This document shows, in pieces, positions 27,665-43,887 of a DNA stretch of 64,000 bases. This DNA comes from Ramlibacter agri. Its GTDB lineage: Bacteria > Pseudomonadota > Gammaproteobacteria > Burkholderiales > Burkholderiaceae_C. Made by a program: the position numbers and the translations under genes. The notes below the pieces were generated by a model that saw nothing but the letters and a program-made list of their open reading frames with translations, did no database searches and had not been told where the DNA came from. The stretch lies in contig NZ_JABBFX010000001.1 in NCBI RefSeq assembly GCF_012927085.1, positions 3,286,001-3,350,000 on the forward strand, read 5' to 3'. How positions within the stretch are numbered: the first letter of the stretch is position 1; every line of letters begins with the position of its first letter.

Positions 27665-29845
27665 TCAGGCCAGCAAGGGCTGCACGCGCTCGCGCGTGAA
27701 AGGCACGCTGCGCACGCGCCTGCCGGTCGCATCGAAGACGGCATTGGCCAGTGCCGCCGGCACCGGCGCGGCGGCCGCTTCGCCCGCGCCCAGCGGCGGC
27801 TGGTCCAGGCGCTGCACCAGCTCGATGTCCAGCCGCGGCACCTCCGGGAAACGCAGCAGGGGATAGCCGCGCCAGTCGACGCTGGTCACGCGGCTGCGGT
27901 CGAAGGTGGTCTCCTCGTGCAAGGTACGCGACAAGGTCTGCAGGATGTTGCCCTCCACCTGTGCCCGCACCGCATCGGGGTTGATCATCAGCCCGCAGTC
28001 GTGCACGCAGGCCACGCGCAGCACGCGGATCTCTCCGCTCTTGCGGTCCACCGCCACGTCCATGCCCATCGCGACGAAGGTCTCGTTGTGCTTGTAGTGG
28101 ATGTAGGCCATGCCGCGCCCGCGGCCCTGGCCGGCGGCGCCCGCACGCGTCTCCCACTTCATCAGGCGTGCGAGCCGCTCGACCACTTCGCGCCCGCGCG
28201 GCTGCGCCAGGTCGCGCAAGCGGAATTGCAGCGGATCCACGTTGGCGCGCGCGGCCAGTTCGTCGACGAAGCTCTCCACCGCGAAGCAGTTGCCCACCTT
28301 GCCCGGCGCGCGGATGTTGGACGGCCGCAGCGGCGAGCCCTCGATCCAGTGCACGTGCACCCGCATCGCCTTGGCACCGTAAGGCGGATCGCCGTTCTGC
28401 GACACCAGCCCGGTCGATTGCCCCTTCGGTTGCGGCAGGCCCGCAGCGACAGGTGAGAGCAGGGGGATCCACGCCAGGTTGGCCGTCGCGCGCGGCAGCC
28501 ACATCTCGGTGGACCAGGCGTCGATGCCGCCTTCGGGCGTCAGGCTGGCGCTGATCTCCAGCAGCTGCGGGGGCCCCTTGGGGTCCCAGCCAAGTTCGTC
28601 TTCGCGGCTCCATTGCACCCGCACCGGCTTGCCGAGCGCCTTCGACAGCATCGCGGCTTCGACGCTGGCATCGTCATGCCCGTTCATGCCGTAGCAGCCG
28701 GCGCCGTCGAGGTAGATGGTGCGGACCCTGGCCTGCTCCAGGCCCAGCGCCGCGGCGCAGGAGACGACCAGCCGGTGGCTGGCCTGCGAAGCGGTCCAGA
28801 TGGTCGCGCCATCGCTGCGCACGTCCGCGACCGAACACGACGGGCCCATCGACGCATGCGACTGCAGCGGCCAGTAGTAGCTGGCGTGCAGCTTGCGCGC
28901 GTCGCCGGCCAGCGCTTCCAGCCGGGTCTTGTCGCCCTTGTCGACCAGAGTTTCCTCGGCCACGAAAGGCCCCGAGCGCGCCCAGTCGGCGACCTTCTGG
29001 CTGGAGGGCAGCGGCTCGTTCTCGCTCCATTGCGTCTTCAGCTCGCGCGAGGCGCGGATCGCGGCCCATTCATCCGGCGCGGCGACGGCCAGGAAGTCGT
29101 TGACGCGCACCACGCGCACGTCCGGCAACTGCGCGACCGAGCCTTCGTCGACGGCCAGCAGCTTCGCGCCGATTGCCGGCGGCCGGATCACGCGCGCATG
29201 CAGCATGCCCGGCACGGCGAAATCGTGCATCCACACATGCTGGCCGGTGACCTTGGCCGGCAGGTCGGGCCGGGGCAGCGACTTGCCGACGATCTCGTAC
29301 TGCGCGGGCGGCTTCAGCGGCGCGTTGGCGTCGACCGCCAGCTTCTGCAGCGGCAGCTCGGTCCAGGCGATGCTGCGGCCGTCGGCGCCCAGCACGCGGC
29401 CGTCGCGCAGCTTCAAGGTGGAAGCTTCCACGCCCCAGCGCTGCGCGGCCTGCGCCAGCAGCGCTTCGCGCATCGTGGCTGCGGCGCGGCGCAGTTCGAC
29501 GCCGCCGCGCATCACGCCGGTGCTGCCGGCGGTGGGGCCCTGGTTGGGCGTGAGCGCGCTGTCGCCCTCGATCAATTCGATGCGGTTCACCGGCAAGGTG
29601 AGTTCTTCGCCCACCATCTGCCGCATGGAGATGCGGTGGCCGGTGCCCAGGTCCACCTTGCCGGAGTAGACGACCAGCGTGCCGTCCGGGCGCAGCGCGA
29701 GGAAGGAATCGGCCTGGTCCAGCGGCAGCGCGCCGCGTGGCGCCTGCTGCTGTCCGTAGGCGGGAAGACCCAGCAGCGAGAAGCCGACGATGCAGACGCT
29801 GCCCTTCAGCAGTTCGCGGCGCGAGAGCGTGACGGCTGCCATCAT
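27665..29845 (-). CDS. Molybdenum hydroxylase large subunit (IorB-like)
   Basis: A 726-residue molybdopterin-binding subunit of the xanthine dehydrogenase/isoquinoline 1-oxidoreductase family. The N-terminus is a Tat signal (SRRELLKGSVCIVGFSLLGL), so the complex is probably assembled in the cytoplasm and exported folded. Family motifs include VDLGTGHRISMRQMVGEELT, GPTAGSTGVMRGG, and GGRA-type molybdopterin regions. The ATG at 29845 overlaps the small-subunit stop (ATGA); the next codon is also ATG and better spaced from AAGGAG. It is the last gene of the oxalate operon. Two-subunit members usually pass electrons to a cytochrome, but no cytochrome gene is adjacent. The substrate is unknown. 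Confidence 0.88.
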   Translation of the reverse strand: MMAAVTLSRRELLKGSVCIVGFSLLGLPAYGQQQAPRGALPLDQADSFLALRPDGTLVVYSGKVDLGTGHRISMRQMVGEELTLPVNRIELIEGDSALTPNQGPTAGSTGVMRGGVELRRAAATMREALLAQAAQRWGVEASTLKLRDGRVLGADGRSIAWTELPLQKLAVDANAPLKPPAQYEIVGKSLPRPDLPAKVTGQHVWMHDFAVPGMLHARVIRPPAIGAKLLAVDEGSVAQLPDVRVVRVNDFLAVAAPDEWAAIRASRELKTQWSENEPLPSSQKVADWARSGPFVAEETLVDKGDKTRLEALAGDARKLHASYYWPLQSHASMGPSCSVADVRSDGATIWTASQASHRLVVSCAAALGLEQARVRTIYLDGAGCYGMNGHDDASVEAAMLSKALGKPVRVQWSREDELGWDPKGPPQLLEISASLTPEGGIDAWSTEMWLPRATANLAWIPLLSPVAAGLPQPKGQSTGLVSQNGDPPYGAKAMRVHVHWIEGSPLRPSNIRAPGKVGNCFAVESFVDELAARANVDPLQFRLRDLAQPRGREVVERLARLMKWETRAGAAGQGRGRGMAYIHYKHNETFVAMGMDVAVDRKSGEIRVLRVACVHDCGLMINPDAVRAQVEGNILQTLSRTLHEETTFDRSRVTSVDWRGYPLLRFPEVPRLDIELVQRLDQPPLGAGEAAAAPVPAALANAVFDATGRRVRSVPFTRERVQPLLA

Positions 29846-30312
29846 GCTTCTCCTTGTCCGGACGCCCGCGCGATCGCTTTCAGCACGCGGTCCTGCGAGC
29901 CGCAGCGGCACAGGTTGCCGCCCAGCGCGGCCTGCGCCTGCTCGCGCGTGGGCCGCGGCGTGCGCTGCAGCAGCGCCACCGAGGTCATGACCATGCCGTT
30001 GGTGCAGTAGCCGCATTGCGCCGCCTGTTCGGCGATGAAGGCCGCTTGCACGGGATGCGGCTTCTCCGGCGTGCCCAGGCCTTCGTTGGTGGTGATCGCG
30101 TGCCCGGCGGCGTCGGACAGCTTCAGCAGGCAGGAGCGCACTGGGCTGCCATCGAGCAGCACGGTGCAGGCGCCGCACTGGCCCAGCCCGCAGCCGAACT
30201 TGGCGGCGTGCAGGCCCAGCGTGTTGCGCAGGGCGTAGAGCAGCGGCATGTCGCCGTCCCAGGCGTCCACCTCGCGCGGGGCGCCGTTCACTGTCAAGCG
30301 GTAGCTGGCCAT
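29842..30312 (-). CDS. [2Fe-2S] small subunit of molybdenum hydroxylase (IorA-like)
   Basis: A 156-residue iron-sulphur protein with two cluster domains. The plant-type cluster is GCGLGQCGACTVLLDG plus a downstream cysteine (VRSCLLKL). The second cluster is CGYCTNGM..LCRCGSQDRV. It moves electrons from the molybdenum site of the large subunit. An AGGAGGTGACC ribosome site precedes the ATG at 30312. There is no signal peptide, so it would be carried out by the Tat signal of its partner. It is co-transcribed with the NuoE/F-like gene 34 bp upstream. Confidence 0.92.
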   Translation of the reverse strand: MASYRLTVNGAPREVDAWDGDMPLLYALRNTLGLHAAKFGCGLGQCGACTVLLDGSPVRSCLLKLSDAAGHAITTNEGLGTPEKPHPVQAAFIAEQAAQCGYCTNGMVMTSVALLQRTPRPTREQAQAALGGNLCRCGSQDRVLKAIARASGQGEA

Positions 30313-30346: not shown

Positions 30347-31144
30347 TCAATTCGCGTACGACTGGAAGTCCTCGCGGCCGTGGCCGCCGGTCGCGGCGAA
30401 CCACTCGGGGCCATGCTCCAGCAGCACCCGCAAGCCGAACAGGGTTTCGAAGTCCTGCGCCAGCGCGGAGGCGTCGCCTGCGCTGCGCAGCTCGAGGCGC
30501 GGCAGGGCGGGCGAGGGCGGCTCGGCCTGCAGCCTGGCGAGCTCCTGCAGCAGCAGCGCGCGGCAGCCATGCCAGGCCGGGTGCAGCACGGCGCAGGCGC
30601 TGGCGCTGCCGCAAGCCCAGGCGGCGATCAGCAGCCCTTCCAGCAGGCGGTGCGGGTCGCGCTCCAGCCGGGAGCGGTGGCGGAAGTCGGAGGCATCGAC
30701 GGCGAGCAGCCGTACCCCCTGCTTGCGGGCGCCGCGCCACTGGCGCGCGGCCGGCAGGCCGGCGGCGGCCAGGGCGGCGATGACGAAGCGCGCTTCGCGC
30801 TCGCCCTTGAGGCACTGCTCCAGCATCGCGTAGCCGCCGGCGGCGCGGTATTGCGACAGGCCGATGTAGCCCTCGGGTTCGTGCGTGACGCTGCCGTCCT
30901 GGACGCAATCGATGACGCGCTGCGCCGTGGCGCAGGCCACCGGGAATTGGCCGACCATCGCAGCCGGCGCCTGGTCGCAGCGGCCGATGCAGCCGGCCGG
31001 CTGCACCGGGATTTCGCGCCCCAGCAGGGGCGGCAGCTTGTGCAGCAGTCCCGGCGCACCGGCCGCCACGCAGGACGCGCCGGTGCAGACGTGGACCGTG
31101 ACGGCAGGCCCTGTTTCAGCCTTGCGCCGCCCGCGGCTGGCCAT
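30347..31144 (-). CDS. Shortened NuoE/NuoF-like fusion protein with [2Fe-2S] domain
   Basis: A 265-residue protein. The N-terminus is a thioredoxin-like ferredoxin with Cys20, Cys25, Cys52 and Cys56, as in NuoE or FdsG. A NuoF/FdsB-like region follows: YRAAGGYAMLEQCLKGE, then GLPAARQWRGARKQG where NuoF has GLRGRGGAGFPTGLKW, then LLAVDASDFRHRSRLERDPH and EGLLIAAWACGSASA. The glycine-rich FMN-binding loop is therefore lost, and the ICGEETAL segment and C-terminal 4Fe-4S domain are missing. It may be an electron-transfer adaptor rather than an NADH dehydrogenase. It is 3 bp from the acyl-CoA ligase gene, firmly inside the operon. Confidence 0.7.
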   Translation of the reverse strand: MASRGRRKAETGPAVTVHVCTGASCVAAGAPGLLHKLPPLLGREIPVQPAGCIGRCDQAPAAMVGQFPVACATAQRVIDCVQDGSVTHEPEGYIGLSQYRAAGGYAMLEQCLKGEREARFVIAALAAAGLPAARQWRGARKQGVRLLAVDASDFRHRSRLERDPHRLLEGLLIAAWACGSASACAVLHPAWHGCRALLLQELARLQAEPPSPALPRLELRSAGDASALAQDFETLFGLRVLLEHGPEWFAATGGHGREDFQSYAN

Positions 31145-31147
31145 GCC

Positions 31148-33289
31148 TCACAGCAGGCCGGCCGCCCGCGCCCACTGGTACTTGGCGCCCAGCACTTCCA
31201 CCGGCAGTTCGGTGGAGTACGCATAGGCGGGGATGCCGTTCTCGTACAGGTACTGCGCGGCTTCCTCGACCTCCACGTCGCCCGCGAGCGAGGCGACCAC
31301 GGGCTTGACCTTGCCCTTCTCCTTCATCTCGTTGACCACCTGCACCATGTTGCGCGCGAACACCATGGGCGGCGTCACGATGGTGTGCCAGTAGCCCAGG
31401 ATCAGCGCGTGGATGCGGTCGTCCTCCAGGCCCAGGCGCACCGTGTTCATGTAGGTGATGGGCGGCTCGCCGCCGGTGATGTCCACCGGGTTGCCGGCCG
31501 CGCCGAAGGGCGGGATGAACTTGCGGAAAGCCGCGTCCAGGTCGGCCGGCATGGGCTTGAGCAGCTTCAGGCCGTTGTCCACGCAGGCGTCGGACAGCAG
31601 CACGCCGGAGCCGCCGGCGCCCGTGATGATGACCACGTTCTCGCCCTTGGGCGTGGGCAGGATGGGCACGCCGCGCGACAGCTCCAGCATCTGGCGCAGG
31701 CTGCGGGCGCGGATGACGCCGGACTGCTTGAGGACGTCCTCGTAGATCTTGTCAGTGCCGGCCACGGCGCCGGTGTGCGACGCCGCGGCGGCGGCGCCCA
31801 TGGCGGTGCGGCCCGCCTTGAGCATGATCACCGGCTTCTTCTTCGACACGCGCTTGGCGACTTCGGCGAAGGCGCGGCCGTCCTTCAGGTCCTCGGCGTG
31901 CTGGGCGATCACCTTCGTGTTGTCGTCCTGCTCGAAGAAGAGGAGCAGGTCGTCCTCGTCGATGTCCGACTTGTTGCCCAGGCCGACGATGGCCGACACG
32001 CCCATCTTGGCGGAGCGCGAGAAGCCGATGATGGCCATGCCGATGCCGCCGGACTGCGAGCTGAGGGCCGTGGAGCCCTTGACGTCGTAGGCCGTGCAGA
32101 AGGTGGCGCACAGGTTCGCCGGCGTGTAGTAGAAGCCGTAGATGTTGGGCCCCATCAGGCGGATGTTGTACTCGCGCCCGATCCGCTGCAGTTCCTCCTG
32201 GCCTTCGATGTTGCCCGTCTCGCCGAAGCCGGACGGGATGAGGATGGCGCCGGCGATCTTCTTCTCGCCGCATTCCTTGAGGGCGGCGGCCACCAGCGGG
32301 GCGGGGATCGCGAACACCGCGGTGTCGATGTCGCCCGGAACGTCCTTCACGCTCTTGTAGGCCGTGAGGCCCATGATCTCGCCGCCCTTGGGCGTGATCG
32401 GATAGATCTTGCCCTGGTAGCCGCCGTTGATCAGGTTCTTCATCACCGAGTTGCCGATCTTGCCGGCCTGGTCGGACGCGCCGATCACCGCTACCGCCTT
32501 CGGCTTCATGATGCGGTTCATGGACGTGACGACGGCCTTCTCGTCCGGGCGGTAGCGCGGCTCCTTCGGGGCGAAGTTGACCACGATGCGCACGTCGGCC
32601 GCGATGGCGCCGGTTTCGCTGGCGAACACCGGGTTCAGGTCCATCTCCGAGATCTCGGGGAAGTCGTGCACCAGCTGCGACACGCGCACGATGATGTCCT
32701 GCACCGCCTCGCGGTTCACCGGCTTGCCGCCGCGCACGCCCTTCAGCATCTCGCTCGCCTGGATGCCATCCAGCATCGAGGCCGCGTCTTCCATGGTGGC
32801 CGGGGCCAGGCGGAAGGTGACGTCCTTCAGCACCTCCACCAGCACGCCGCCCATGCCGAAGGCCACGAGCTTGCCGAAGCTGTTGTCGGTCATCGCGCCG
32901 ACGATCACCTCCTGGCCGCCCTTGATCATCTGCTGGACCTGCACGCCGAGGATCTTGGCGTCGGCCTTGTACTTCTTCGCGTTGGCGATGATCTGCTCGT
33001 AGGCGGTGGCGGCCTCGTCGGCGTTCTTCAGGCCCACCATCACGCCGCCGGCTTCCGTCTTGTGCAGGATGTCGGGCGAGACGATCTTCATCACCACGGG
33101 AAAGCCCATGGAACTGGCCAGCTTGGAGGCTTCCGCCGCGCTCGTGGACACCGCCTCCTTCGGCACCGCGATGCCATAGGCCTCGCAGACCACCTTGCCT
33201 TCCGGCGCCGTCAGCGCGTCGCGCCCGGCCTTCTTGACTGCATCGAGGACCTGGCGGACCTTGGCCTTGTCACCCTGGAAGTTGCCCAT
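31148..33289 (-). CDS. ADP-forming acyl-CoA synthetase (acetate-CoA ligase family), beta-alpha order
   Basis: A 713-residue fusion. The ATP-grasp (beta) domain comes first and contains ILHKTEAGGV with the phosphate-relay histidine. The CoA-binding domain follows (AVAVIGASDQAGKIGNSV), then the succinyl-CoA-synthetase-like domain with the other active-site histidine in AAASHTGAVAGTDKIYEDVL. Many bacterial relatives have the opposite, alpha-beta order. The enzyme couples an acyl-CoA plus ADP and phosphate to acid plus ATP, or the reverse. Lying 19 bp after frc, it could activate oxalate or conserve energy from formyl-CoA; both are inference. Confidence 0.88.
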   Translation of the reverse strand: MGNFQGDKAKVRQVLDAVKKAGRDALTAPEGKVVCEAYGIAVPKEAVSTSAAEASKLASSMGFPVVMKIVSPDILHKTEAGGVMVGLKNADEAATAYEQIIANAKKYKADAKILGVQVQQMIKGGQEVIVGAMTDNSFGKLVAFGMGGVLVEVLKDVTFRLAPATMEDAASMLDGIQASEMLKGVRGGKPVNREAVQDIIVRVSQLVHDFPEISEMDLNPVFASETGAIAADVRIVVNFAPKEPRYRPDEKAVVTSMNRIMKPKAVAVIGASDQAGKIGNSVMKNLINGGYQGKIYPITPKGGEIMGLTAYKSVKDVPGDIDTAVFAIPAPLVAAALKECGEKKIAGAILIPSGFGETGNIEGQEELQRIGREYNIRLMGPNIYGFYYTPANLCATFCTAYDVKGSTALSSQSGGIGMAIIGFSRSAKMGVSAIVGLGNKSDIDEDDLLLFFEQDDNTKVIAQHAEDLKDGRAFAEVAKRVSKKKPVIMLKAGRTAMGAAAAASHTGAVAGTDKIYEDVLKQSGVIRARSLRQMLELSRGVPILPTPKGENVVIITGAGGSGVLLSDACVDNGLKLLKPMPADLDAAFRKFIPPFGAAGNPVDITGGEPPITYMNTVRLGLEDDRIHALILGYWHTIVTPPMVFARNMVQVVNEMKEKGKVKPVVASLAGDVEVEEAAQYLYENGIPAYAYSTELPVEVLGAKYQWARAAGLL

Positions 33290-33308: not shown

Positions 33309-34556
33309 TTAAATCACTTTGGACTGGCGCAGCTCGGCGATCTGGTCCTTGCCGAAACCCAGTTGCGCCAGCACTTCATCGGTGTGCTCGCCCAGCAGGG
33401 GCGAGCGCGTGACTTCGGTGGGGCTGTCCGACAGCTTGATCGGGTTGCCCACGCTCAGGTACTTGCCGCGCTTGGGGTGGTCCACTTCGACCACGGTGCC
33501 GGTGGCGCGCAGCGACTCCTCGTTGGCCAGCTCCTTCATCGACAGGATCGGGCCGCAGGGGATGTCGTACTCGTTCAGGATCTCCATCGCCTCGAACTTG
33601 GTCTTGGTCTTGGTCCATTCCTCGATGCGCGAGAAGATGGTCTTCAGGTGCGGCAGGCGTGCCTTGGGCGTGGCGTAGCTGGGGTCGGTGATCCAGGTCT
33701 CTTCGCCGATGACCTTGCAGATCTTTTCCCACACCGGGGCCTGCGTGATGAAGTAGATGTAGGCGTTGGGATCATGCTGCCAGCCCTTGCACTTCAGGAT
33801 CCAGCCCGGCTGGCCGCCACCCGACGCATTGCCCGCGCGCGGCACCGCTTCGCCGAACTCGCCTTCGGGGTATTGCGGGTACTCCTCCATCACGCCCTTG
33901 CGGTCCAGGCGCTGCTGGTCGCGCAGCTTCACGCGGCACAGGTTCAGCACGGCGTCCTGCATGGCCGCCTGCACGCGCTGGCCCTTGCCGGTGGCCTGGC
34001 GCTGGTACAGCGCGGTGACGATGCCCAGGCACAGGTGCAGGCCGGTGCCGCTGTCGCCGATCTGCGCGCCGGTGACGATGGGCGGGCCGTCGTCGAAGCC
34101 GGTGGTGGAAGCGGCGCCGCCGGCGCACTGCGCCACGTTCTCGTAGACCTTGCAGTCCTCGTAGGGGCCGGGGCCGAAGCCCTTGATCGAAGCGACGATC
34201 ATGCGCGGGTTGATCTGCTGGATGCGGTCCCAGCTGAAGCCCATGCGGTCCAGCGCGCCGGGCGCGAAGTTCTCCACCAGCACGTCGCAATGCTTGATCA
34301 GCTCGATCAGCACTTCCTTGCCCTTGGGGCTCTTGGTGTCCAGCGTGATGGAGCGCTTGTTGTGGTTCAGCATCGTGAAGTAGAGGCTGTCCACGCCGTC
34401 GATGTCGCGCAGCTGCTGCCGCGTGACGTCGCCTTCACCCGCCTTCTCGACCTTGATGACGTCCGCGCCGAACCATGCCAGCAGCTGCGTGCAGGTGGGA
34501 CCCGACTGCACGTGCGTGAAGTCGAGGATCTTGACGCCTTCGAGTGCTTTGCCCAT
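33309..34556 (-). CDS. frc: Formyl-CoA:oxalate CoA-transferase
   Basis: A 415-residue family III CoA-transferase, essentially the length of E. coli Frc (416). It opens [20 protein letters not shown] and has [16 protein letters not shown], the catalytic aspartate near residue 168 in [17 protein letters not shown], and the Frc-type [17 protein letters not shown] loop. It swaps CoA from formyl-CoA to oxalate, giving oxalyl-CoA and formate in the cytoplasm. GGAG upstream of the ATG supports the start. It is 26 bp downstream of oxc, the enzyme that makes formyl-CoA, which makes the assignment strong. Confidence 0.95.
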
Positions 34557-34582
34557 TGCTTGCTCCAGATGTTGAATTTCGT

Positions 34583-36307
34583 TCAGGCCTTCTTCTTCGC
34601 CGCCGGATTCAGGTTCGTGATCCGCCCCGATTCGGTGCCGGCCGTCTCGTCGATGATCGCGTTGATCAGCGTCGGCTTGCCGCTGGCGATGGCCTCGTCG
34701 ATGGCGCGCTTCAGTTCGGCCGGCGTCGCCGCGCGCACGCCCTTGCCGCCGAAGGCTTCCATCATCAGCTCGTACTTCGCGTCCTTGACGAACACCGTGG
34801 GCGCGACTTCCTTGCCCAGCGGGTTGACGTCGGTGCCCTTGTAGATGCCGTTGTTGTTGAAGACGACCACGCACACCGGCAGGTCGTAGCGGCAGACCGT
34901 CTCGACCTCCATGCCGGAGAAGCCGAAGGCGCTGTCGCCGCAGACGGCGATGACCTGCTTGCCGGTGACGGCCGCGGCCGCGACGGCGAAGCCCATGCCG
35001 ATGCCCATGATCCCCCAGGTGCCGACGTCGAGGCGCTTGCGCGGCTCGTACATGTCGACGATGGAGCGGGCGAAGTCCAGCGTGTTGGCGCCTTCGTTCA
35101 CCAGGTAGGCGTCCGGGTTGGCCTTGATGGTGTCGCGGATGACGTTGAGCGCGCTGTGGAAGTTCATCACCGGCGGGTTCTTCGCCAGCGTCTCGGCCAT
35201 CTTGGTGAGGTTCTTGTCCTTGCGTTCGGCGATGGCGCCGGTCCAGTCGCTGGGCGGCTTGCTCCAGGAGGAGCCGATCGCCTGGTTCATCGCGGCGATG
35301 CAGGAGCCGATGTCGCCGATCACCGGCGCGGCGACGGCGACGTTGCTGTCCGCTTCGGTCGGCGAGATGTCGACCTGGATGAACTGCTGCTGGCCCCAGC
35401 CCTTGGAATCGGCCGCGCCCCAGGTCTTGCCCTTGCCGTGCGACAGCAGCCAGTTGAGGCGTGCGCCCACCAGCATCACGACGTCGGCTTCGGCCAGCAC
35501 GTAGGAGCGGGCGGCGGAGGCGGACTGCGCGTGGTTGTCCGGCAGCAGGCCCTTGGCCATGGACATCGGCAGGTAGGGAATGCCGGTCTTCTCGACGAAC
35601 TGCTTGATCGCTTCGTCGGCCTGCGCGTAGGCGGCGCCCTTGCCCAGGATCACCAGCGGCTTCTTCGCGCCCTTCAGCAGGTCGATGGCGCGCTGCACGG
35701 CATCGGGGCCGGGGATCTGCTTCGGCGCCGGGTCGACGACCTTGATCAGCGAACGCTGGCCGACTTCCCTGGACACGACCTGCGCGAACAGCTTGGCCGG
35801 CAGGTCCAGGTAGACGCCGCCGGGGCGGCCCGACGCGGCGGCGCGGATGGCGCGTGCGATGCCCACGCCGATGTCCTCGGCGTGCAGCACGCGGAAGGCC
35901 GCCTTGCACAGCGGCTTGGCGATGGCGAGCTGGTCCATCTCCTCGTAGTCGCCCTGTTGCAGGTCGACCACCTCGCGCTCACTGGAGCCCGAGATGAGGA
36001 TCATGGGGAAGCAGTTGGTGGTGGCGTTGGCCAGCGCCGTCAGGCCGTTCAAGAAGCCGGGCGCCGACACCGTGAAGCAGATGCCGGGCTTGCCCGTGAT
36101 GAAGCCGGCCGCCGCCGCGGCGTTGCCCGCGTGCTGTTCGTGGCGGAAGGAGATGACCTTGACGCCTTCGCCTTGCGCCTGGCGCAGGAAGTCGGTGATG
36201 GGGATGCCCGGCAGCGCGAAGATCGTGTCGATGCCGTTCAACTTCAGAGCGTCGATGACCAGATGGAAACCATCCGTTGTCTCTTGATCCTGCATGGAGG
36301 TGGTCAT
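34583..36307 (-). CDS. oxc: Oxalyl-CoA decarboxylase
   Basis: A 574-residue ThDP enzyme close to known oxalyl-CoA decarboxylases. It has [18 protein letters not shown] with the cofactor-activating glutamate, [36 protein letters not shown], and the ThDP motif [17 protein letters not shown]. It converts oxalyl-CoA to formyl-CoA and CO2. The ATG at 36307 is chosen; a second ATG lies at 36295 and neither has a clear ribosome site. It is the first gene of the six-gene operon. Upstream, a TACCAT hexamer at 36339-36344 lies about 42 bp from the centre of the palindromic regulator site. Confidence 0.96.
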
Positions 36308-36338: not shown

Positions 36339-36344
36339 ATGGTA
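36339..36344 (-). promoter_or_regulatory. Candidate -10 element of the oxc operon
   Basis: TACCAT on the minus strand, four of six matches to TATAAT. A start site about 7 bases downstream (near 36332) would place the palindrome at 36366-36382 centred close to -41.5, the classical class II position for a Crp/Fnr activator. No good -35 is needed for that arrangement. Confidence 0.45.
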
Positions 36345-36365: not shown

Positions 36366-36382
36366 TCTTGACCGCAGTCAAG
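36366..36382. promoter_or_regulatory. Crp/Fnr-type operator between oxc and its regulator
   Basis: TCTTGACCGCAGTCAAG, containing the inverted repeat CTTGAC-CGCA-GTCAAG. This is the TTGAC-N4-GTCAA form used by FNR/NNR-type proteins. It stands in the divergent region between oxc and the regulator gene. The identical 17 bases recur on the minus strand at 42471-42487 before tctC. Confidence 0.75.
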
Positions 36383-36420
36383 TTTCGGAAATTCCTAGGG
36401 GAATCCCTGCTCCAGACCCG

Positions 36421-37029
36421 ATGACATCGATCGAAAAGCATCCCGAACGGAACGTCATTCGCGTGCAGCTCGCGCACAACGTCGCCCTCAAGGGCATGAC
36501 GGCGGCGCAGATGCAGGAGCTCGAGCCCATGCTCACCATCGTCGATTGCCAGAAGGGCGAGGCGCTGCTGAACCAGGGCGTGCACGAGATGGAGCAGTAC
36601 TTCATCCTCGACGGCATCCTGAAGCGGGTGGTGGGCAACCAGGAAGCCAAGGAGATGATCCTGCGCTTCGCGGAAGAGGGCCAGATGGAGACCAGCTACG
36701 CCGCCTGGCGGCTCGGCACGCCGGCGCCGTACAGCATCGTGTGCGTGACGCGCGCGCGGGTGGCCAAGCTGCCGCTGCGCGAGTGGGTGGTATTCCTCGA
36801 GCGCCATCCGGGCGTGAAGCAGGCCTTCGAGTACGAGGTGATGCACCACATGAGTGAAATCATGGCGCACACGATCACCTTGCACCTGCTGGACGCGCCA
36901 GGCCGGGTGAAGCGCTTCCTGCGCAAGCACCCGGAACTGGAGGAGCGGCTGCCGAAGAAAGAGCTGGCCTCATATCTCAATCTCTCGGCAGAAACGCTCA
37001 GCCGGCTGAAGGCCAAGGGCAAGATCTAG
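36421..37029 (+). CDS. Crp/Fnr-family transcriptional regulator of the oxalate genes
   Basis: A 202-residue protein with a cyclic-nucleotide-type beta-roll (GEALLNQGVHEMEQYFILDG, FAEEGQMETSYAAW) and a C-terminal HTH. The recognition helix LSAETLSRLKAKG carries the E-xx-SR pattern (E191, S194, R195) that in FNR reads TTGA half-sites, consistent with the TTGAC-N4-GTCAA palindrome 38 bp upstream. The N-terminal cysteine cluster of FNR is absent, so oxygen sensing by Fe-S is unlikely; the beta-roll may bind a small ligand. It is divergent from oxc, and its stop overlaps that of the OxlT-like gene by 4 bp. Confidence 0.9.
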   Translation: MTSIEKHPERNVIRVQLAHNVALKGMTAAQMQELEPMLTIVDCQKGEALLNQGVHEMEQYFILDGILKRVVGNQEAKEMILRFAEEGQMETSYAAWRLGTPAPYSIVCVTRARVAKLPLREWVVFLERHPGVKQAFEYEVMHHMSEIMAHTITLHLLDAPGRVKRFLRKHPELEERLPKKELASYLNLSAETLSRLKAKGKI

Positions 37030-38336
37030 GCCTGCGAGCGTTCGATCAGCGTGCGGCGCATCGGCCGCAGCGCCACCCAGGCCAGGATCGCGGCCGCCGC
37101 GTTCATGATGCTCGCCGTGATGAACACCGCATGCCAGCTGCCGCTGGCCGCCGAGAGCACGCTGGACAGCGGCACCAGCAGCGCCGCGGTGCCCTTGGCG
37201 GTGTACAGCAGGCCGGCGTTGGCGGCGGCGTACTTGGCGCCGAAGGTGTCCGCGCAGGTCGAGGGGAACAGGCTGTAGATCTCGCCCCAGGCGAAGAACA
37301 CCAGGCCGGTCAGGATGACGAACATGACCGGGTTGCTGCCGAAGGCGTACAGCGCCAGGATGCCCAGCGCTTCCAGCCCGAAGGCGATGAACATGGTCTG
37401 TTCGCGGCCGATGCGGTCGGAGACCCAGCCGAAGAAGGGGCGGGTCAGGCCGTTCAGCACGCGGTCCATCGCCAGCGCGAAGGTCAGCGCGGGCAGCACG
37501 ATGCCGGCCAGGCTCACCGGCGTGTCGGCGACCTTGAAGTCCTTGGCGATGGGCGCGAGCTGCGCGGTGGCCATCAGGCCGCCGGCCGCAACCAGCACGA
37601 ACATCAGGTACATCACCCAGAACACGGGCTTGCCCAGCATTTCGCCCGGCGTGTATTCCTTGCGGGTCTGCTGCACCTTCGCCGCGTCGGAGGCGCGCGA
37701 GGCGTAGCGGTTGCCCGCCGGCGCCGCGTGCAGGAACCAGGACAGCACGAAGATGATCGCGCCCTGGCCGATGCCGAAGTACAGGAAGGCGGCCTGGTAG
37801 CCGTGCGCCTGGATGTACATCGAGATCGGCACCACCGTCAATGCGGAGCCGGCGCCGAAGCCGGCGGCCGTCAGGCCGGCCGCGAGACCGCGGCGATCCG
37901 GGAACCACTTGAGCGCATTGCCAACGCAGGTGCCGTAGACCGCGCCGGCGCCGACGCCGCCGACGGCCGCGCCCACGTACAGCAAGGTCAGCGTGTCGGC
38001 ATGGGCATTGATGACCCAGCCCAGGCCCGCGAGCAGGCCGCCGGCCATGACGACCACGCGCGGACCGTACTTGTCGACCAGGTAGCCCTCCACCGGAACC
38101 AGCCAGGTTTCAGTGAGCACGAAGATGGTGAAGGCGACCTGGATCGCCGCCTTGGTCCAGTGGTGCTGCTCCGCGATCGGGTTCACGAACAGCGTCCAGC
38201 CGTACTGCAGGTTGGCGATCATCGCCATGCAGATGATGCCCAGGACCAGCTGGCTCCAGCGGTAGGCTGGTCCGTGTTCCGCCGCGGCGGGTGCGGCCAG
38301 GCCCGCGCCGGGTAGCGCGTCTACGATCTTGTCCAT
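37026..38336 (-). CDS. MFS transporter, oxalate/formate antiporter (OxlT) type
   Basis: A 436-residue protein with 12 predicted helices. OxlT-like features include the N-terminal YRWSQLVLGIICMAMIANLQ, YGWTLFVNPI, LVDKYGPRVVVMAGG, and FVLVAAGGLMATAQLAPIAK in the second half. The family exchanges oxalate for formate, so it fits formate removal after the Frc reaction. It is the last gene of the minus-strand operon tctC-tctB-tctA-kinase/BON-oxlT, 40 bp after the kinase/BON gene. Its presence with a TTT system means two uptake routes in one unit. Confidence 0.9.
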   Translation of the reverse strand: MDKIVDALPGAGLAAPAAAEHGPAYRWSQLVLGIICMAMIANLQYGWTLFVNPIAEQHHWTKAAIQVAFTIFVLTETWLVPVEGYLVDKYGPRVVVMAGGLLAGLGWVINAHADTLTLLYVGAAVGGVGAGAVYGTCVGNALKWFPDRRGLAAGLTAAGFGAGSALTVVPISMYIQAHGYQAAFLYFGIGQGAIIFVLSWFLHAAPAGNRYASRASDAAKVQQTRKEYTPGEMLGKPVFWVMYLMFVLVAAGGLMATAQLAPIAKDFKVADTPVSLAGIVLPALTFALAMDRVLNGLTRPFFGWVSDRIGREQTMFIAFGLEALGILALYAFGSNPVMFVILTGLVFFAWGEIYSLFPSTCADTFGAKYAAANAGLLYTAKGTAALLVPLSSVLSAASGSWHAVFITASIMNAAAAILAWVALRPMRRTLIERSQA

Positions 38337-38376
38337 CGATGTCTCCTGTAATGTAGGTTTAGGAGGAGGGAAGCAA

Positions 38377-39210
38377 TCAGGTCTTCGAGTGCATGAACCG
38401 GCGCGATACCGTCATCAACTGCAGCCGGTTGTCCACCTTGCCCAGGCCGGCGACCGTCGAAGCCACGCGTTCGCTGTCCTGTTTTTCTTCATCGCTCGCG
38501 ACCAGGCCGGCGAGCACCACGCGGCCGTCGCGCGCTTCGATCTGCACGTCGACGTCGCGCGTGGCGGGCTGCGACTTGAGCGCCGCGCGGACGCGGGCGC
38601 CCAGCGCCAGGCCTTCCAGCACGGCGCGCGATTCCGTCGTTTCCTGGAACTCCGGCCGCTGCGCCAGTTGCACGATCTGCTCCACGCAGCTGTCCACGGA
38701 CAGCCGCTCGGTGTTCAGCACCACGTCATAGAGCAGGGGGTCGCCCCAGCTCACGCCGAACTGCGCGTTCATGCGCGCGATGTGCGCGTTGTCGCTGCGG
38801 CGCACTTCGTTCTCCGCGGCCTGGCGGTCGTCGGTTCCCAGGTGCTCCATCAGCCAGCCCACGCGCAGCGCGAAAGGGCGCGTGACGCGCACCCGCAGCA
38901 CGTGCGAGACGGGGCGCAGCAGGCAGGTCGCGCCCCAGCCGCGCAGGATGACGTTGCCGCGCGCGGCCTGCGCCAGCACCTCCTCGGCGGTGTAGAGCGC
39001 CACCTGCTGCTTGTCGGTGGACAGGCGTTCGACCAGGCCGGCCTTGCCTTCGCGCAGGCGCCGGATCAGGCTGGGCGCCACCTGCATGCGGCCGGCCACG
39101 TTGTCCACCACCTCGTCGCGCAGCACGGCGAGGCCGCTGGTTTCGGCGAGCCGCAGGGCCACGTCCTTGGCCAGCGAGCCCATCTCCTGCGTCAGTGCGA
39201 TGACCGGCAT
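38377..39210 (-). CDS. Cytidylate-kinase-like protein fused to a BON domain
   Basis: A 277-residue protein. Residues 1-200 resemble the cytidylate kinase-2 family: MPVIALTQEMGSLAKDVALR as a degenerate P-loop, VVDNVAGRMQVAPSLIRRLR, LRGWGATCLLRPVSHVLRVR and NVERLS-like DVVLNTERLSVDSCVEQI. Residues about 205-270 form a BON-like domain (RVRAALKSQPATRDVDVQIE, DGRVVLAGLVASDEEKQDSE). The P-loop lacks a clear GKS/T, so nucleotide kinase activity is doubtful. It lies 13 bp after tctA. Why such a protein travels with a transporter operon is unclear; regulation or an assembly role are guesses. Confidence 0.75.
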   Translation of the reverse strand: MPVIALTQEMGSLAKDVALRLAETSGLAVLRDEVVDNVAGRMQVAPSLIRRLREGKAGLVERLSTDKQQVALYTAEEVLAQAARGNVILRGWGATCLLRPVSHVLRVRVTRPFALRVGWLMEHLGTDDRQAAENEVRRSDNAHIARMNAQFGVSWGDPLLYDVVLNTERLSVDSCVEQIVQLAQRPEFQETTESRAVLEGLALGARVRAALKSQPATRDVDVQIEARDGRVVLAGLVASDEEKQDSERVASTVAGLGKVDNRLQLMTVSRRFMHSKT

Positions 39211-39223
39211 GGCGGGCCCTTCC

Positions 39224-40753
39224 TCAGTCGACCGGCTGTTCGGTGGTGAAGGTGCTTGCCTTGGGCTTGCGCACCATCGCGATGAGGCGGCCGATGACCG
39301 GCCAGAACAGCAGCAGCAGCGCCAGGCCGGTGATGGTGCCCACCAGCGGGTTGGAGACCATGATCGACAGGTCGCCCTGCGACACCAGCATGGCCTGGCG
39401 GAACGAGTCTTCCGCCTTGTCGCCCAGCACCAGGGCGAGCACCAGCGGCGCCAGCGGGTAATCCAGCTTCTTGAAGATGTAGCCCAGCGCGCCGAAGCCC
39501 AGCATGAACCACACGTCCAGCATCGCGTTGTGCACGGTGTAGGCGCCGATCGCGCAGATCACCACGATCACCGGCGCGATGATGGCGAAGGGGATGCGCA
39601 GGATGGCGGCGAACAGCGGCACCGTGGTCAGCACCACCAGCAGGCCGGCCAGGTTGCCCAGGTACATCGAGGCGATCAGGCCCCAAACGAAGTCCTTCTG
39701 CTCCACGAACAGCAGCGGGCCGGGTTGCAGGCCCCAGATCAGCAGGCCGCCCAGCAGCACGGCGGCGGTCGGCGAGCCGGGGATGCCCAGGGCCAGCATG
39801 GGCAGCAGCGCGCTGGTGCCGGCGGCGTGGGCCGCGGTCTCGGGCGCGATCACGCCTTCCATCTGGCCGGTGCCGAACTTGGCGCCGTCCTTGGACATCT
39901 TCTTCGCCAGGCCGTAGCTCATGAAGGAAGCGGGCGTCGCGCCGCCGGGCGTGATGCCCATCCAGATGCCCACCAGCGAGCTGCGAATGGAGGTGACCCA
40001 GTACTTCGGCAGCTGCTTCCAGGTCTCCAGCACCACCTTCGGGTTGATCCTGGCGCTCTTGCCGGTGAAGGCCAGTCCTTCCTCCATCGACAGCAGGATC
40101 TCGCCGATGCCGAACAGTCCGATCACCGCGATCAGGAAGTCGAAGCCGCGCATCAGGTCGGGGATGCCGAAGGTCAGGCGCAGCTGGCCGGTGACGGTGT
40201 CCATGCCGACCGCGGCCAGCGCGAAGCCGATCGCCATCGAAGCGAGGATCTTGAACGGCGAGCCCTTGCCCATGCCGACGAAGCTGCAGAAGGTGAGCAG
40301 GTAGACCGCGAAGAATTCCGGCGGCCCGAACTTGAGCGCGAACTTCGCGACCACCGGCGCGAGGAAGGTGATCATCACCACCGCGACGAAGGCGCCGACG
40401 AACGACGACGTGAAGGCCGCGGTCAGCGCCTGCCCCGCGCGCCCGTCCTGCGCCATCGGGTAGCCGTCGAAGGTGGTCGCCACCGACCACGGCTCGCCCG
40501 GGATGTTGAACAGGATCGAGGTGATGGCGCCGCCGAAGAGGGCGCCCCAGTAGATGCAGGACAGCATGATGATCGCCGAGGTCGGCGACATCGTGAAGGT
40601 GAGCGGCAGCAGGATGGCGACGCCGTTGGCGCCTCCCAGCCCTGGCAGCACGCCGATGAGGACGCCGAGGGAAATGCCCACCAGCATCAGCAGCATGTTC
40701 ATCGGGCTCAGGACCACGGCGAAGCCGTGGAACAGGGCGCTGAGTTCGGTCAT
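39224..40753 (-). CDS. tctA: Tripartite tricarboxylate transporter large membrane subunit
   Basis: A 509-residue protein of the TctA family with about 12 hydrophobic helices. Signature stretches are GVLPGLGGANGVAILLPLTF, YWGALFGGAITSILFNIPGE and GITPGGATPASFMSYGLAKK. It is the sodium- or proton-coupled permease of the system at 39.2-42.4 kb, acting with the TctB and TctC products. It is 21 bp downstream of tctB and followed after 13 bp by the kinase/BON gene. The substrate is probably a di- or tricarboxylate; the operator shared with oxc favours oxalate or a related acid. Confidence 0.95.
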   Translation of the reverse strand: MTELSALFHGFAVVLSPMNMLLMLVGISLGVLIGVLPGLGGANGVAILLPLTFTMSPTSAIIMLSCIYWGALFGGAITSILFNIPGEPWSVATTFDGYPMAQDGRAGQALTAAFTSSFVGAFVAVVMITFLAPVVAKFALKFGPPEFFAVYLLTFCSFVGMGKGSPFKILASMAIGFALAAVGMDTVTGQLRLTFGIPDLMRGFDFLIAVIGLFGIGEILLSMEEGLAFTGKSARINPKVVLETWKQLPKYWVTSIRSSLVGIWMGITPGGATPASFMSYGLAKKMSKDGAKFGTGQMEGVIAPETAAHAAGTSALLPMLALGIPGSPTAAVLLGGLLIWGLQPGPLLFVEQKDFVWGLIASMYLGNLAGLLVVLTTVPLFAAILRIPFAIIAPVIVVICAIGAYTVHNAMLDVWFMLGFGALGYIFKKLDYPLAPLVLALVLGDKAEDSFRQAMLVSQGDLSIMVSNPLVGTITGLALLLLFWPVIGRLIAMVRKPKASTFTTEQPVD

Positions 40754-40774
40754 GGTTCTTGGCGCCTCAGGTTT

Positions 40775-41296
40775 TCAGTAGCCGAGGAAGGACAGCAGGT
40801 CCAGCGTGCCCTTGGCGAGCGGCACCTTGAACCAGACTTCGAACATGAGGAAGAAGGCGGCGTTGATCAGCACCGCCGTCACGACGCTCTTGATCACGCT
40901 GATCTTCCCCAGCCGCACCATGAACAGCGCGATGTAGACGGCGGAGGCGATGTAGATGCCGACGAACTGCACGGCCAGCACGTAGATCACCGCCGGCACG
41001 AACACCACCAGCACGCGCCGCAGCTGCTCGCCGGTGACGAAGATGCCGTGGCTGCGGTTCTTGCCCAGCAGCGATTGGTACAGCACTCCCAGCGCGGAGA
41101 TGCACAGGATGAGGCCGACGTAGAAGGGGAAGTAGCCGGCGCCGGGGCCGTCGCTGGTCCAGCCGGCGCCGAGCTTGTGGCTGGCGACGACGATGACGAG
41201 CCCGAGGGCCAGCACCAGCAGCGCCATCACGGCTTCGATGGCAAACGTGGGCACGCCGTGGCCTTCGGCTTCGCTGGCCTGGTCTTGCGAATCCAT
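40775..41296 (-). CDS. tctB: Tripartite tricarboxylate transporter small membrane subunit
   Basis: A 173-residue protein with four hydrophobic helices in TctB style: FAIEAVMALLVLALGLVIVV, then GPGAGYFPFYVGLILCISAL with the typical GPGxFP motif, then two more near the C-terminus. It accompanies TctA in the inner membrane. The ATG at 41296, with GGAG 9 bases upstream, is preferred over a TTG at 41311. A strong hairpin (41318-41338) separates it from tctC, suggesting lower expression than the binding protein. Confidence 0.92.
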   Translation of the reverse strand: MDSQDQASEAEGHGVPTFAIEAVMALLVLALGLVIVVASHKLGAGWTSDGPGAGYFPFYVGLILCISALGVLYQSLLGKNRSHGIFVTGEQLRRVLVVFVPAVIYVLAVQFVGIYIASAVYIALFMVRLGKISVIKSVVTAVLINAAFFLMFEVWFKVPLAKGTLDLLSFLGY

Positions 41297-41317
41297 GTGT
41301 GGAATCTCCAAGGAGAA

Positions 41318-41338
41318 GCCCCCGCGCGCGGCGGGGGC
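41318..41338 (-). other. Intercistronic hairpin between tctC and tctB
   Basis: GCCCCCGC, a 5-nt loop, then GCGGGGGC: a perfect 8-bp G/C stem just 7 bases after the tctC stop. No U-tract follows. It may stabilise the tctC message or attenuate transcription, giving excess binding protein over membrane subunits. Confidence 0.5.
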
Positions 41339-41345
41339 AGGGGGC

Positions 41346-42368
41346 TTACTGGGAGATGAAACCCGCGCTCTTCATCAGCTCGCGGTGCTGCTGTTCCGCC
41401 GCGCCGAGCCACTGGAAGTACTTGTCGCCGTCCATGGAGGTCTGGTTGAAGGCGCCCTTCTCCATGTAGTCCTTCCACTCGGGCGTCTCGCGGACCTTCT
41501 TCAGCAGGTTCACGTAGAAGTCGACCTGGTCCTTGCTCACGCCCGGGGGCATGAAGACGCCGCGCAGCATGGTGTAAGCGGTGGGCACGCCGGCTTCCTT
41601 GCAGGTGGGGATGTCCTGCCAGGACTGCTTGTCGGTGATCTTGGCCGGGTAGGGCATGCGCTTGTCGTCGAACACGCACAGCGGCCGCAGCTGGCCGGCG
41701 CGCCACTGCGCCACGGCCTCGATCGGGTTGTTCACCGTGGAGTCGATGTGCTTGCCCACCAGCTGCACGGCCACTTCGCCGCCGCCCTTGAAGGGCACGT
41801 AGATGAACTTGGCGCCGGTGGCCTTCTCGATGCCGACGGTGAGGATCTGGTCTTCCTGCTTGGAGCCGGTGCCGCCCATCTTGAACTTGTTGGCACCGCC
41901 CGCCTTGACGGCGGCGAGGTAGTCGCCGGCCGTCTTGTACGGCGTCTCGGCGTTGACCCACAGCACGAAGTTGTCCAGGGCCATCATCGACACCGGCGTC
42001 ATGTCGCGCCAGTTGAAGGGCACGCCGGTCGCCAGCGGCGTCGTGAACAGGTTCGAGAGGGTCACCACCAGCTTGTGCGGGTCGCCCTTGGCGCCCTTGA
42101 CGTCGAGGAAGCCTTCGGCGCCGGCGCCGCCCGACTTGTTCACGACGATCATCGGCTGCTTCATGAGGCTGTGCTTGACCACGATGCCCTGGATCAGGCG
42201 CGCCATCTGGTCGGCGCCGCCGCCGGTGCCGGCTGGCACCACGAATTCGACGGGCTTGGTCGGCTCCCAAGCTGCGTGGGCGCGGGGGGCTGCCGTGGCG
42301 GCTAGGCCCGCTAGGAGGACGGTGGAGGCGAGAGCCGCCAACCGGGTGCTGAAGCTCGCTTGCATCAT
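41346..42368 (-). CDS. tctC: Tripartite tricarboxylate transporter substrate-binding protein
   Basis: A 340-residue Bug/TctC receptor. A Sec signal peptide (LAALASTVLLAGLAATAAPR, cut after AHA) precedes the mature start WEPTKPVEFVVPAGTGGGAD. Family motifs include VVNKSGGAGAEGFLDVKGAK, GTGSKQEDQILTVGIEKATG and YVPFKGGGEVAVQLVGKHI. It captures a carboxylate in the periplasm for TctAB. Two ATGs are adjacent; the first is used. It is the first gene of its operon, and the palindrome shared with oxc is 103-119 bp upstream. Confidence 0.93.
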   Translation of the reverse strand: MMQASFSTRLAALASTVLLAGLAATAAPRAHAAWEPTKPVEFVVPAGTGGGADQMARLIQGIVVKHSLMKQPMIVVNKSGGAGAEGFLDVKGAKGDPHKLVVTLSNLFTTPLATGVPFNWRDMTPVSMMALDNFVLWVNAETPYKTAGDYLAAVKAGGANKFKMGGTGSKQEDQILTVGIEKATGAKFIYVPFKGGGEVAVQLVGKHIDSTVNNPIEAVAQWRAGQLRPLCVFDDKRMPYPAKITDKQSWQDIPTCKEAGVPTAYTMLRGVFMPPGVSKDQVDFYVNLLKKVRETPEWKDYMEKGAFNQTSMDGDKYFQWLGAAEQQHRELMKSAGFISQ

Positions 42369-42470
42369 GGCTTGTCTCCTGCGTTACGCCCGGCGTTCGC
42401 CATTCGTGGGAAGTGATGGCGTGATCACCAGACCGCAGGCGGATGCTCCAACCAAGCGGGTTGGATTTCT

Positions 42471-42487
42471 CTTGACTGCGGTCAAGA
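42471..42487. promoter_or_regulatory. Crp/Fnr-type operator upstream of the tctCBA operon
   Basis: On the minus strand this reads TCTTGACCGCAGTCAAG, identical in all 17 bases to the site before oxc at 36366-36382. It is the only other copy noticed in the window. It lies 103 bp before the tctC start, where no convincing -10 was found at the class II distance, so a more upstream activator position or a different promoter is likely. Confidence 0.72.
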
Positions 42488-42924: not shown

Positions 42925-42948
42925 CACGAACGCTTATAGTTGACGGCC

Positions 42949-43887
42949 ATGCGCAATGCGACCTTGCGGCAGTTGAAGGTGTTCGAAGCGGTGGCCCGCC
43001 TGCGCAGTTTTTCGCGCGCGGCCGAAGAACTGCACCTCACGCAGCCCGCGGTGTCGACGCAGGTGCGCAAGCTGCAGGAGCACGCGGGGCTGCCGCTGTT
43101 CGAGCAATTGGGCAAGAAGATCCACCTGACGCCCGCGGGCGCGCAGATGCTGGAGTCCAGCCGCGAGATCATCCAGAAATTCCAGGAAGCCGAGGAGGCG
43201 ATGGCGCACTTCCGCGGCGTCTCGGGCGGCCGGCTGAACGTGTCGGTGATCAGCGCCGGCGACTATTTCTTTCCGCGGCTGCTGGTGGATTTCGCGCAGC
43301 GCCATGCCGACGTCAGCTTCAACTTCGGCGTCGTCAACCGCGAGGAGCTGCTCACGCGCCTGAAGGACAACCAGACCGACCTGGCGGTGATGGTGCGGCC
43401 GCCGGACGACCTGGACACCAACGCCGAAGCCTTCGCGCCGCACCCTTACGTGATCGTCGCGCCGCCGGGGCACGCGCTCGCGCGCACCCGGCGCATCACC
43501 GTGAACCGCATCGCGCGCGAGCCCTTCGTGGTGCGCGAGCAGGGCTCGGACACCTGGAACTCGATGGCGCAGGGCTTCGGGCCACAGCTGGCCAGCGTGA
43601 ACGTGGCGATGGAGATCCGCAGCACCGAGACCATCAAGCAGGCGGTGATGGCCGGCATGGGCATCAGCTTCCTGTCGGCGCACACCGTCAGCCGCGAGCT
43701 GCAGGCGGGCAGCCTGGTGGTGCTGGACGTGCAGGGCTTTCCGCTGATGCTGAACTGGTACGTGGTGCACCGGCGCACCAAGCGCCTGCCGCCCGTCGCC
43801 CAGGCCTTCAAGGCCTTCCTGTTGAAGGACGGGGCGAAGCTGATCGAGCAGGCGTTGGGGACGAAGCCGGTGCGGAAAGCGCGTTAA
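42949..43887 (+). CDS. LysR-family transcriptional regulator
   Basis: A 312-residue LTTR. The N-terminal HTH is TLRQLKVFEAVARLRSFSRA..LHLTQPAVSTQVRKLQEHAG, in the CbbR/CysB-like style. The effector domain includes VSVISAGDYFFPRLLVDFAQ and GMGISFLSAHTVSREL. The ATG at 42949 begins the canonical N-terminus; a TTG upstream is less likely. It is divergent from the 78-residue protein and its stop overlaps the convergent panE-like gene by 4 bp (TTAA). Target genes are not certain; the adjacent small gene is the first candidate. Confidence 0.9.
   Translation: MRNATLRQLKVFEAVARLRSFSRAAEELHLTQPAVSTQVRKLQEHAGLPLFEQLGKKIHLTPAGAQMLESSREIIQKFQEAEEAMAHFRGVSGGRLNVSVISAGDYFFPRLLVDFAQRHADVSFNFGVVNREELLTRLKDNQTDLAVMVRPPDDLDTNAEAFAPHPYVIVAPPGHALARTRRITVNRIAREPFVVREQGSDTWNSMAQGFGPQLASVNVAMEIRSTETIKQAVMAGMGISFLSAHTVSRELQAGSLVVLDVQGFPLMLNWYVVHRRTKRLPPVAQAFKAFLLKDGAKLIEQALGTKPVRKAR

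Follow-up and report, generated by a model that had tools for sequence, protein, structure and literature searches.

We analysed a 64,000-nucleotide stretch of the genome of the soil bacterium Ramlibacter agri (contig NZ_JABBFX010000001.1, positions 3,286,001 to 3,350,000; hereafter the window), in which a gene for a Crp/Fnr-family protein is flanked by genes for oxalate breakdown and uptake. The original prediction made from this DNA was that the protein joins two operons, beginning with oxc and tctC, through a single shared site, and our results support it: the site recurs together with the regulator and at the spacing of a class II promoter, it is gone from in front of oxc where the regulator is gone, and in extended form it is rare in genomes of the genus. 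We consider it very probable, judging from sequence comparison, that this 202-amino-acid protein is a class II activator dedicated to the catabolism and uptake of oxalate in Burkholderiales. In the mechanism that we propose, a dimer of the regulator would read TTGAC-N4-GTCAA through an FNR-type recognition helix with the motif ETLSR, would bind about 41.5 base pairs (bp) ahead of the points at which transcription of oxc and tctC begins, where it would replace the −35 element, and would recruit RNA polymerase to both the breakdown operon and the uptake operon. Computation yielded the two sites, showed that they are conserved together with the regulator, and gave the spacing of the promoters and the predicted fold. 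The elements concerned are as follows.

36366..36382, plus strand: palindromic site 1, between oxc and the regulator gene (core 36368-36381; sequence TCTTGACCGCAGTCAAG)
36421..37029, plus strand: Crp/Fnr-family regulator, 202 amino acids, ending after the recognition helix
42471..42487, minus strand: palindromic site 2, upstream of tctC (core 42472-42485; exact inverted copy of TCTTGACCGCAGTCAAG)

Both predicted copies of the 17-bp sequence were found exactly, one before oxc and the other, identical and on the opposite strand, before tctC, and as claimed there was no third, the window containing no further match even when up to 3 mismatches were allowed. At this threshold the scan returned four rows, which correspond to the two palindromes, against a mean of 0.15 in shuffled sequence, and four or more rows were obtained in 0 of 100 shuffles. 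The core TTGAC-N4-GTCAA occurs exactly in the window at the two oxalate sites only; at up to 2 mismatches there were 12 matches versus 10.9 expected, and therefore only the exact sites stand out. The genome search for this core that had been proposed (7,200,642 bases in 13 contigs, with the pattern read backwards as control) gave a divided answer. The core alone is not unique, being present at eight places versus three for the reversed control, whereas the extended footprint is confined to the two sites: a pattern derived from the conserved flanks, WYTTGAYNNNNGTCAAKWTY (WYTTGAYN4GTCAAKWTY), matched the genome without mismatch at the two oxalate sites and nowhere else. With up to 2 mismatches it gave 39 matches versus 37 for the control, so a wide regulon in the Ramlibacter agri genome is unsupported. 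Across 41 genomes of the genus a similar extended pattern gave 42 matches in 26 genomes (0-3 per genome, with two of the palindromes counted on both strands) versus 1 for the control.

Conservation of the site was assessed in other bacteria. At least 595 candidate stretches from named genomes were obtained; relatives of the regulator are encoded in at least 550 of these, and the best 80, those nearest the query, were kept. Counting sites with no more than 1 mismatch in the 300 bp before each tblastn segment (a gene split by a gap is counted more than once, and 4 segments near contig ends were set aside), we found that the site precedes the regulator in 78/79 segments, oxc in 72/75, tctC in 53/59 and oxlT in 15/18. 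It precedes frc in only 7/112, most copies of this gene being intra-operonic. The sole miss for the regulator, in locus L099, has its site 302 bp upstream. Over the same 80 loci, site density was 28.7 per 10 kilobases (kb) in the upstream windows versus 0.74 elsewhere, a difference of about 39 times, and for exact sites it was 21.7 versus 0.21 per 10 kb; the half-sites are nearly always TTGAC/GTCAA. In the 73 loci whose flank before the regulator reached 1.2 kb or more, oxc was divergent from the regulator in 70 and frc stood there in two, L099 again following neither rule. Second copies of frc with their own upstream palindrome were seen in L066, L074, L075, L078, L081, L082, L093 and L101, some from Oxalobacteraceae and others not, and the regulon therefore seems wider in those loci. 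Spread on plasmids was also considered; a search of 72,556 plasmid records at 1e-20 matched nothing.

The arrangement of each promoter around its site was then expressed as distance from the site centre, using distinct promoters that have a site. In the window the relevant hexamers are these.

36339..36344, minus strand: TACCAT, the −10-like hexamer for oxc (distance to the centre of site 1, 33 bp)
42443..42448, minus strand: GAGCAT, the −10-like hexamer for tctC (distance to the centre of site 2, 33 bp)

It can be seen that TAxxxT lies at 32/33 bp toward oxc in 71/71 promoters, 63 of them reading TATGAT or TATCAT, and that xAxxxT lies at the same distance in 48/49 promoters of tctC, 15/15 of oxlT and 7/7 of frc; medians over all positions were 0-5 for these four sets. 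The runner-up position for tctC (36/49, at 10/11 bp) corresponds to conserved bases that flank the site itself. Since a −10 element occupies −12 to −7, a hexamer at 32/33 bp implies a site centred at about −41.5, as in class II promoters, and PMC7349173 gives centres near −41.5 for class II FNR sites. The class II activator placement of the site is taken from the position of the −10 element alone. On the regulator side no hexamer stands out at 32/33 bp; the best position has xAxxxT in 23/77 promoters, and the highest mean −10 score falls at 19 bp, which would fit TTGACC as a −35 element with a 17-bp spacer. In two loci the site centre is merely 14 bp from the regulator start, which is ill-suited to activation of the regulator gene. 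The original prediction is refined in one detail: the divergent site 1, which also faces the regulator, has activator geometry toward oxc and not toward the regulator, and autoactivation is unsupported. The resemblance of TTGACC to the −35 element of the regulator promoter in some relatives hints that the bound regulator could perhaps limit its own synthesis.

A separate comparison was made by absence, in a sample of 399 genomes of the order in which Oxc was counted above the curated cut-off. Oxc was present in 75/399 and the regulator in 76, with both in 67, Oxc only in 8 and the regulator only in 9 (Fisher p 1.4e-56, relatedness ignored). The flanks of oxc were inspected for 30 of the 75 oxc loci, and a site with up to 1 mismatch was sought within about 500 bp upstream. 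The regulator was present in 26 of the 30, and 24 of these 26 had the site. The two exceptions were L129, with a site at 2 mismatches, and L144, the flank of which was too short to score; a longer stretch of the latter genome (L172) has a 1-mismatch site between the regulator and oxc. Among the genomes with Oxc and no regulator, the site was found upstream of oxc in 0/8, and in one of them (L155) a 1-mismatch site stands before a partial tctC.

The regulator itself agrees with what had been predicted. The open reading frame (ORF) of 202 amino acids carries ETLSR in SAETLSRLKAKGKI and then stops, and the four cysteines by which FNR holds an Fe-S cluster are missing, as only C43 and C108 are present and neither is in an FNR-like N-terminal group. 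An N-terminal beta barrel of the type that binds cyclic nucleotide monophosphates was identified by Pfam (PF00027, 30.7 bits versus a cut-off of 27.5) and is also seen in the predicted structure, which has the CRP/FNR fold (predicted local distance difference test 94). The long dimer helix and a C-terminal helix-turn-helix are present in the model (helices 130-156, 179-185 and 190-198), and it aligns with FNR and CRP structures through residue 202. Across 52 regulator sequences E191, T192, S194 and R195 are invariant, and no cysteine is. In CRP, Glu, Arg and Ser residues hold cyclic AMP (cAMP); in a profile alignment these correspond to Ser, Thr/Ala and Pro of the regulator, which sets it apart from the cAMP receptor proteins CRP and GlxR, and against the NCBIfam model of CRP it scores 23.7 bits versus a cut-off of 266. 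Sensing of cAMP, or sensing through an Fe-S cluster, was set aside on these residues. The regulator shares the ETLSR helix with FNR of E. coli and A. fischeri, to which it is 16-17% identical, and differs from FNR in having neither its cysteines nor a wing after the recognition helix and in lying beside oxalate genes. The best profile match in the PDB (E 5.8e-13) is 3dn7, a cyclic nucleotide binding regulatory protein of Cytophaga hutchinsonii, a member of another phylum, which likewise ends just past the recognition helix, the match reaching residue 191 of a 194-residue chain. A weaker match over positions 14-199 (E 8.3e-7) was to another Crp/Fnr-family protein, DNR of Pseudomonas (3dkw), the nitric oxide (NO)-responsive regulator of denitrification. 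In two genomes (G007 and G008) a tandem paralogue adjoins the orthologue (L030:1501-2085 and L032:1501-2088); these are 44-47% identical to the regulator of the window, are wingless too and have ETLCRL. According to PMC7349173, the motif ETxSR reads TTGAT.

Several observations weigh against a dedicated activator. The 80 loci are related sequences and not independent trials, and some segments have no site (6/59 for tctC, 3/18 for oxlT, 3/75 for oxc and 1/79 for the regulator). No helix-turn-helix family was among the Pfam matches listed for the regulator, and the strands of the wing, which usually follows the recognition helix in Crp/Fnr proteins, are absent, the chain stopping at residue 202, 4 residues past the last helix; 19 full-length orthologues read to their stop codon all end within 4 residues of the same point (the split hit L025 and the paralogues L030 and L032 being set aside). 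The core also occurs at 6 further places in the genome. These adjoin a P-type ATPase gene, an outer-membrane efflux gene, ORFs without a Pfam match and a LysE-like gene, and two of the six stand before a HemN-like gene and a Cu-oxidase/cytochrome c gene respectively, both genes being typical FNR/Anr or Dnr targets. In 3 of the 6 (L115, L116 and L120) xAxxxT is found at 32/33 bp in at least one direction. Another FNR-type regulator may therefore use such sites, or the local regulator may have more targets. A third target is still conceivable because the hexamer test, which 3 of the 6 extra sites pass, cannot settle a single site. The site before the HemN-like radical-SAM gene reads TTGACGAAGGTCAA (L116:2008-2021). 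That before the Cu-oxidase/cytochrome c gene reads TTGACGCACGTCAA (L120:2014-2027), has TAAGGT 32 bp away and is a 14-mer found at three places in the genome; it possibly belongs to another FNR-type regulator.

An alternative explanation is that the sites at the oxalate genes are FNR/Anr/Dnr boxes whose main reader is a global regulator of the oxygen or NO type, the local protein being secondary. The TTGA half-site is common to ETxSR proteins, the genome has the same core upstream of the HemN-like and Cu-oxidase/cytochrome c genes, and a TTGAC-type FNR box, TTGACTTAAATCAA, is functional in a related bacterium (PMC7349173). We nevertheless regard this explanation as unlikely, as the site is missing before oxc in all 8 genomes that have oxc without the local regulator, travels with that regulator with half-sites that hardly vary, and has its extended flanks only at the oxalate sites in the genome. 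The protein might instead be a repressor that covers the promoters and is released by oxalate or its CoA (coenzyme A) esters: the regulator-side TTGACC can be read as a −35 element with a 17-bp spacer (the 19-bp position, with xAxxxT in 23/77), which would suit autorepression. On the oxc, tctC, oxlT and frc sides, however, the fixed spacing of 32/33 bp puts the site at −41.5, the usual position of an activator, and repression is accordingly very unlikely.

There is also a LysR-type gene at 42940-43887, adjoining tctC and divergent from it, and many of the 80 loci have relatives of this gene close to the cluster. It could be argued that this gene runs the tct operon and that the palindrome there is incidental. 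The tctC site is, however, present in 53/59 segments with the −10 spacing fixed in 48/49, and it is present also where the LysR gene is unseen or kilobases distant, so that we give this possibility very little weight indeed. The local Crp/Fnr protein as activator of both operons is the explanation that we favour; it would bind the sites, activate transcription and probably take its signal from oxalate metabolism, in the form of oxalate, oxalyl-CoA or formyl-CoA.

The eleven structural genes claimed for the two operons proved a fair count, with 6 in the oxc set (oxc, frc, acyl-CoA synthetase, NuoE/NuoF-like, 2Fe-2S and molybdenum-cofactor genes, in that order) and 5 in the tctC set (tctC, tctB, tctA, Cytidylate_kin2/BON and oxlT). 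Judging by strand and spacing, each set is probably a single transcript.

34583..36307, minus strand: oxc, oxalyl-CoA decarboxylase (TIGR03254, 969.9 bits, cut-off 739.4; PDB relatives)
33309..34586, minus strand: frc, formyl-CoA transferase (TIGR03253, 739 bits, cut-off 504.2; start codon not fixed)
31148..33289, minus strand: nucleoside-diphosphate-forming acyl-CoA synthetase-like protein (Pfam ATP-grasp_5 and Ligase_CoA_2; below NCBIfam cut-offs)
30347..31144, minus strand: weakly NuoE/NuoF-like protein (Pfam just under cut-off; NCBIfam below cut-off)
29842..30311, minus strand: 2Fe-2S subunit, xanthine dehydrogenase family (Pfam Fer2 and Fer2_2)
27665..29845, minus strand: molybdopterin-binding subunit, xanthine dehydrogenase family (Pfam MoCoBD_1 and MoCoBD_2)
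41346..42368, minus strand: tctC, substrate-binding protein of a tripartite tricarboxylate transporter (Pfam TctC)
40775..41311, minus strand: tctB (Pfam TctB)
39224..40753, minus strand: tctA (Pfam TctA)
38377..39210, minus strand: Cytidylate_kin2-BON protein (Pfam)
37026..38336, minus strand: oxlT-like oxalate/formate antiporter (TIGR04259, 643.7 bits, cut-off 335)

Among 68 loci with at least 5 kb downstream of the regulator, 52 have tctA only, 9 oxlT only, 4 both and 3 neither, and this near-alternation of tctA and oxlT suggests that TctCBA may import oxalate. The protein with cytidylate-kinase-like and BON domains adjoins tctA again in many of the 80 loci.

In the 9 genomes that have the regulator only, the place of oxc is in most cases filled differently. 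Seven have another thiamine pyrophosphate (TPP) enzyme, 25-28% identical to Oxc, divergent beside the regulator, at the following positions.

TPP enzymes in the oxc slot: L163:8163-9809, L164:4626-6215, L165:4884-6518, L166:4751-6358, L167:5194-6828, L168:4545-6170, L169:7752-9368

These lack the GDYEEMDQ segment and the C-terminal tail of Oxc. For four that were scanned, the best NCBIfam rows were 2-hydroxyacyl-CoA lyase and a model of acetolactate synthase, neither of which reached its cut-off, and the nearest PDB relative of the one compared was a 2-hydroxyacyl-CoA lyase. In 7/7, frc adjoins the enzyme, tctA or oxlT is present and the site lies within about 100 bp of the regulator start, in L166 and L169 with 1 mismatch only. 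The remaining two genomes (L170 and L171) have no such enzyme in the stretch examined, and the sites that they have are distant and carry 1 mismatch. Should the replacement enzymes produce or consume formyl-CoA or oxalyl-CoA, the CoA ester concerned would be a candidate for the signal.

Among the literature matches listed, we found no regulator of oxalate breakdown in Burkholderiales, most subscription papers lying outside the collection searched, and in PMC12927642 the words regulator, Crp, Fnr, tripartite and promoter occur 0 times. A broader proposal, which we put forward tentatively and think rather doubtful as a whole, is that this protein is a master activator of oxalotrophy in many Burkholderiales, wingless, sensing a CoA intermediate (formyl-CoA or oxalyl-CoA) and controlling TctCBA as an oxalate importer. 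If that were true, genomes with the regulator, its sites, frc and the other TPP enzyme would have another means of dealing with that intermediate. The breakdown of oxalate matters for carbon cycling in soil and in the surroundings of plants and fungi. The analysis points to a single regulator and a single site at an exact distance from the promoter, which are directly testable in cultivable relatives and offer a handle on the substrate of TctCBA and on the TPP enzyme that some genomes have in the oxc slot.

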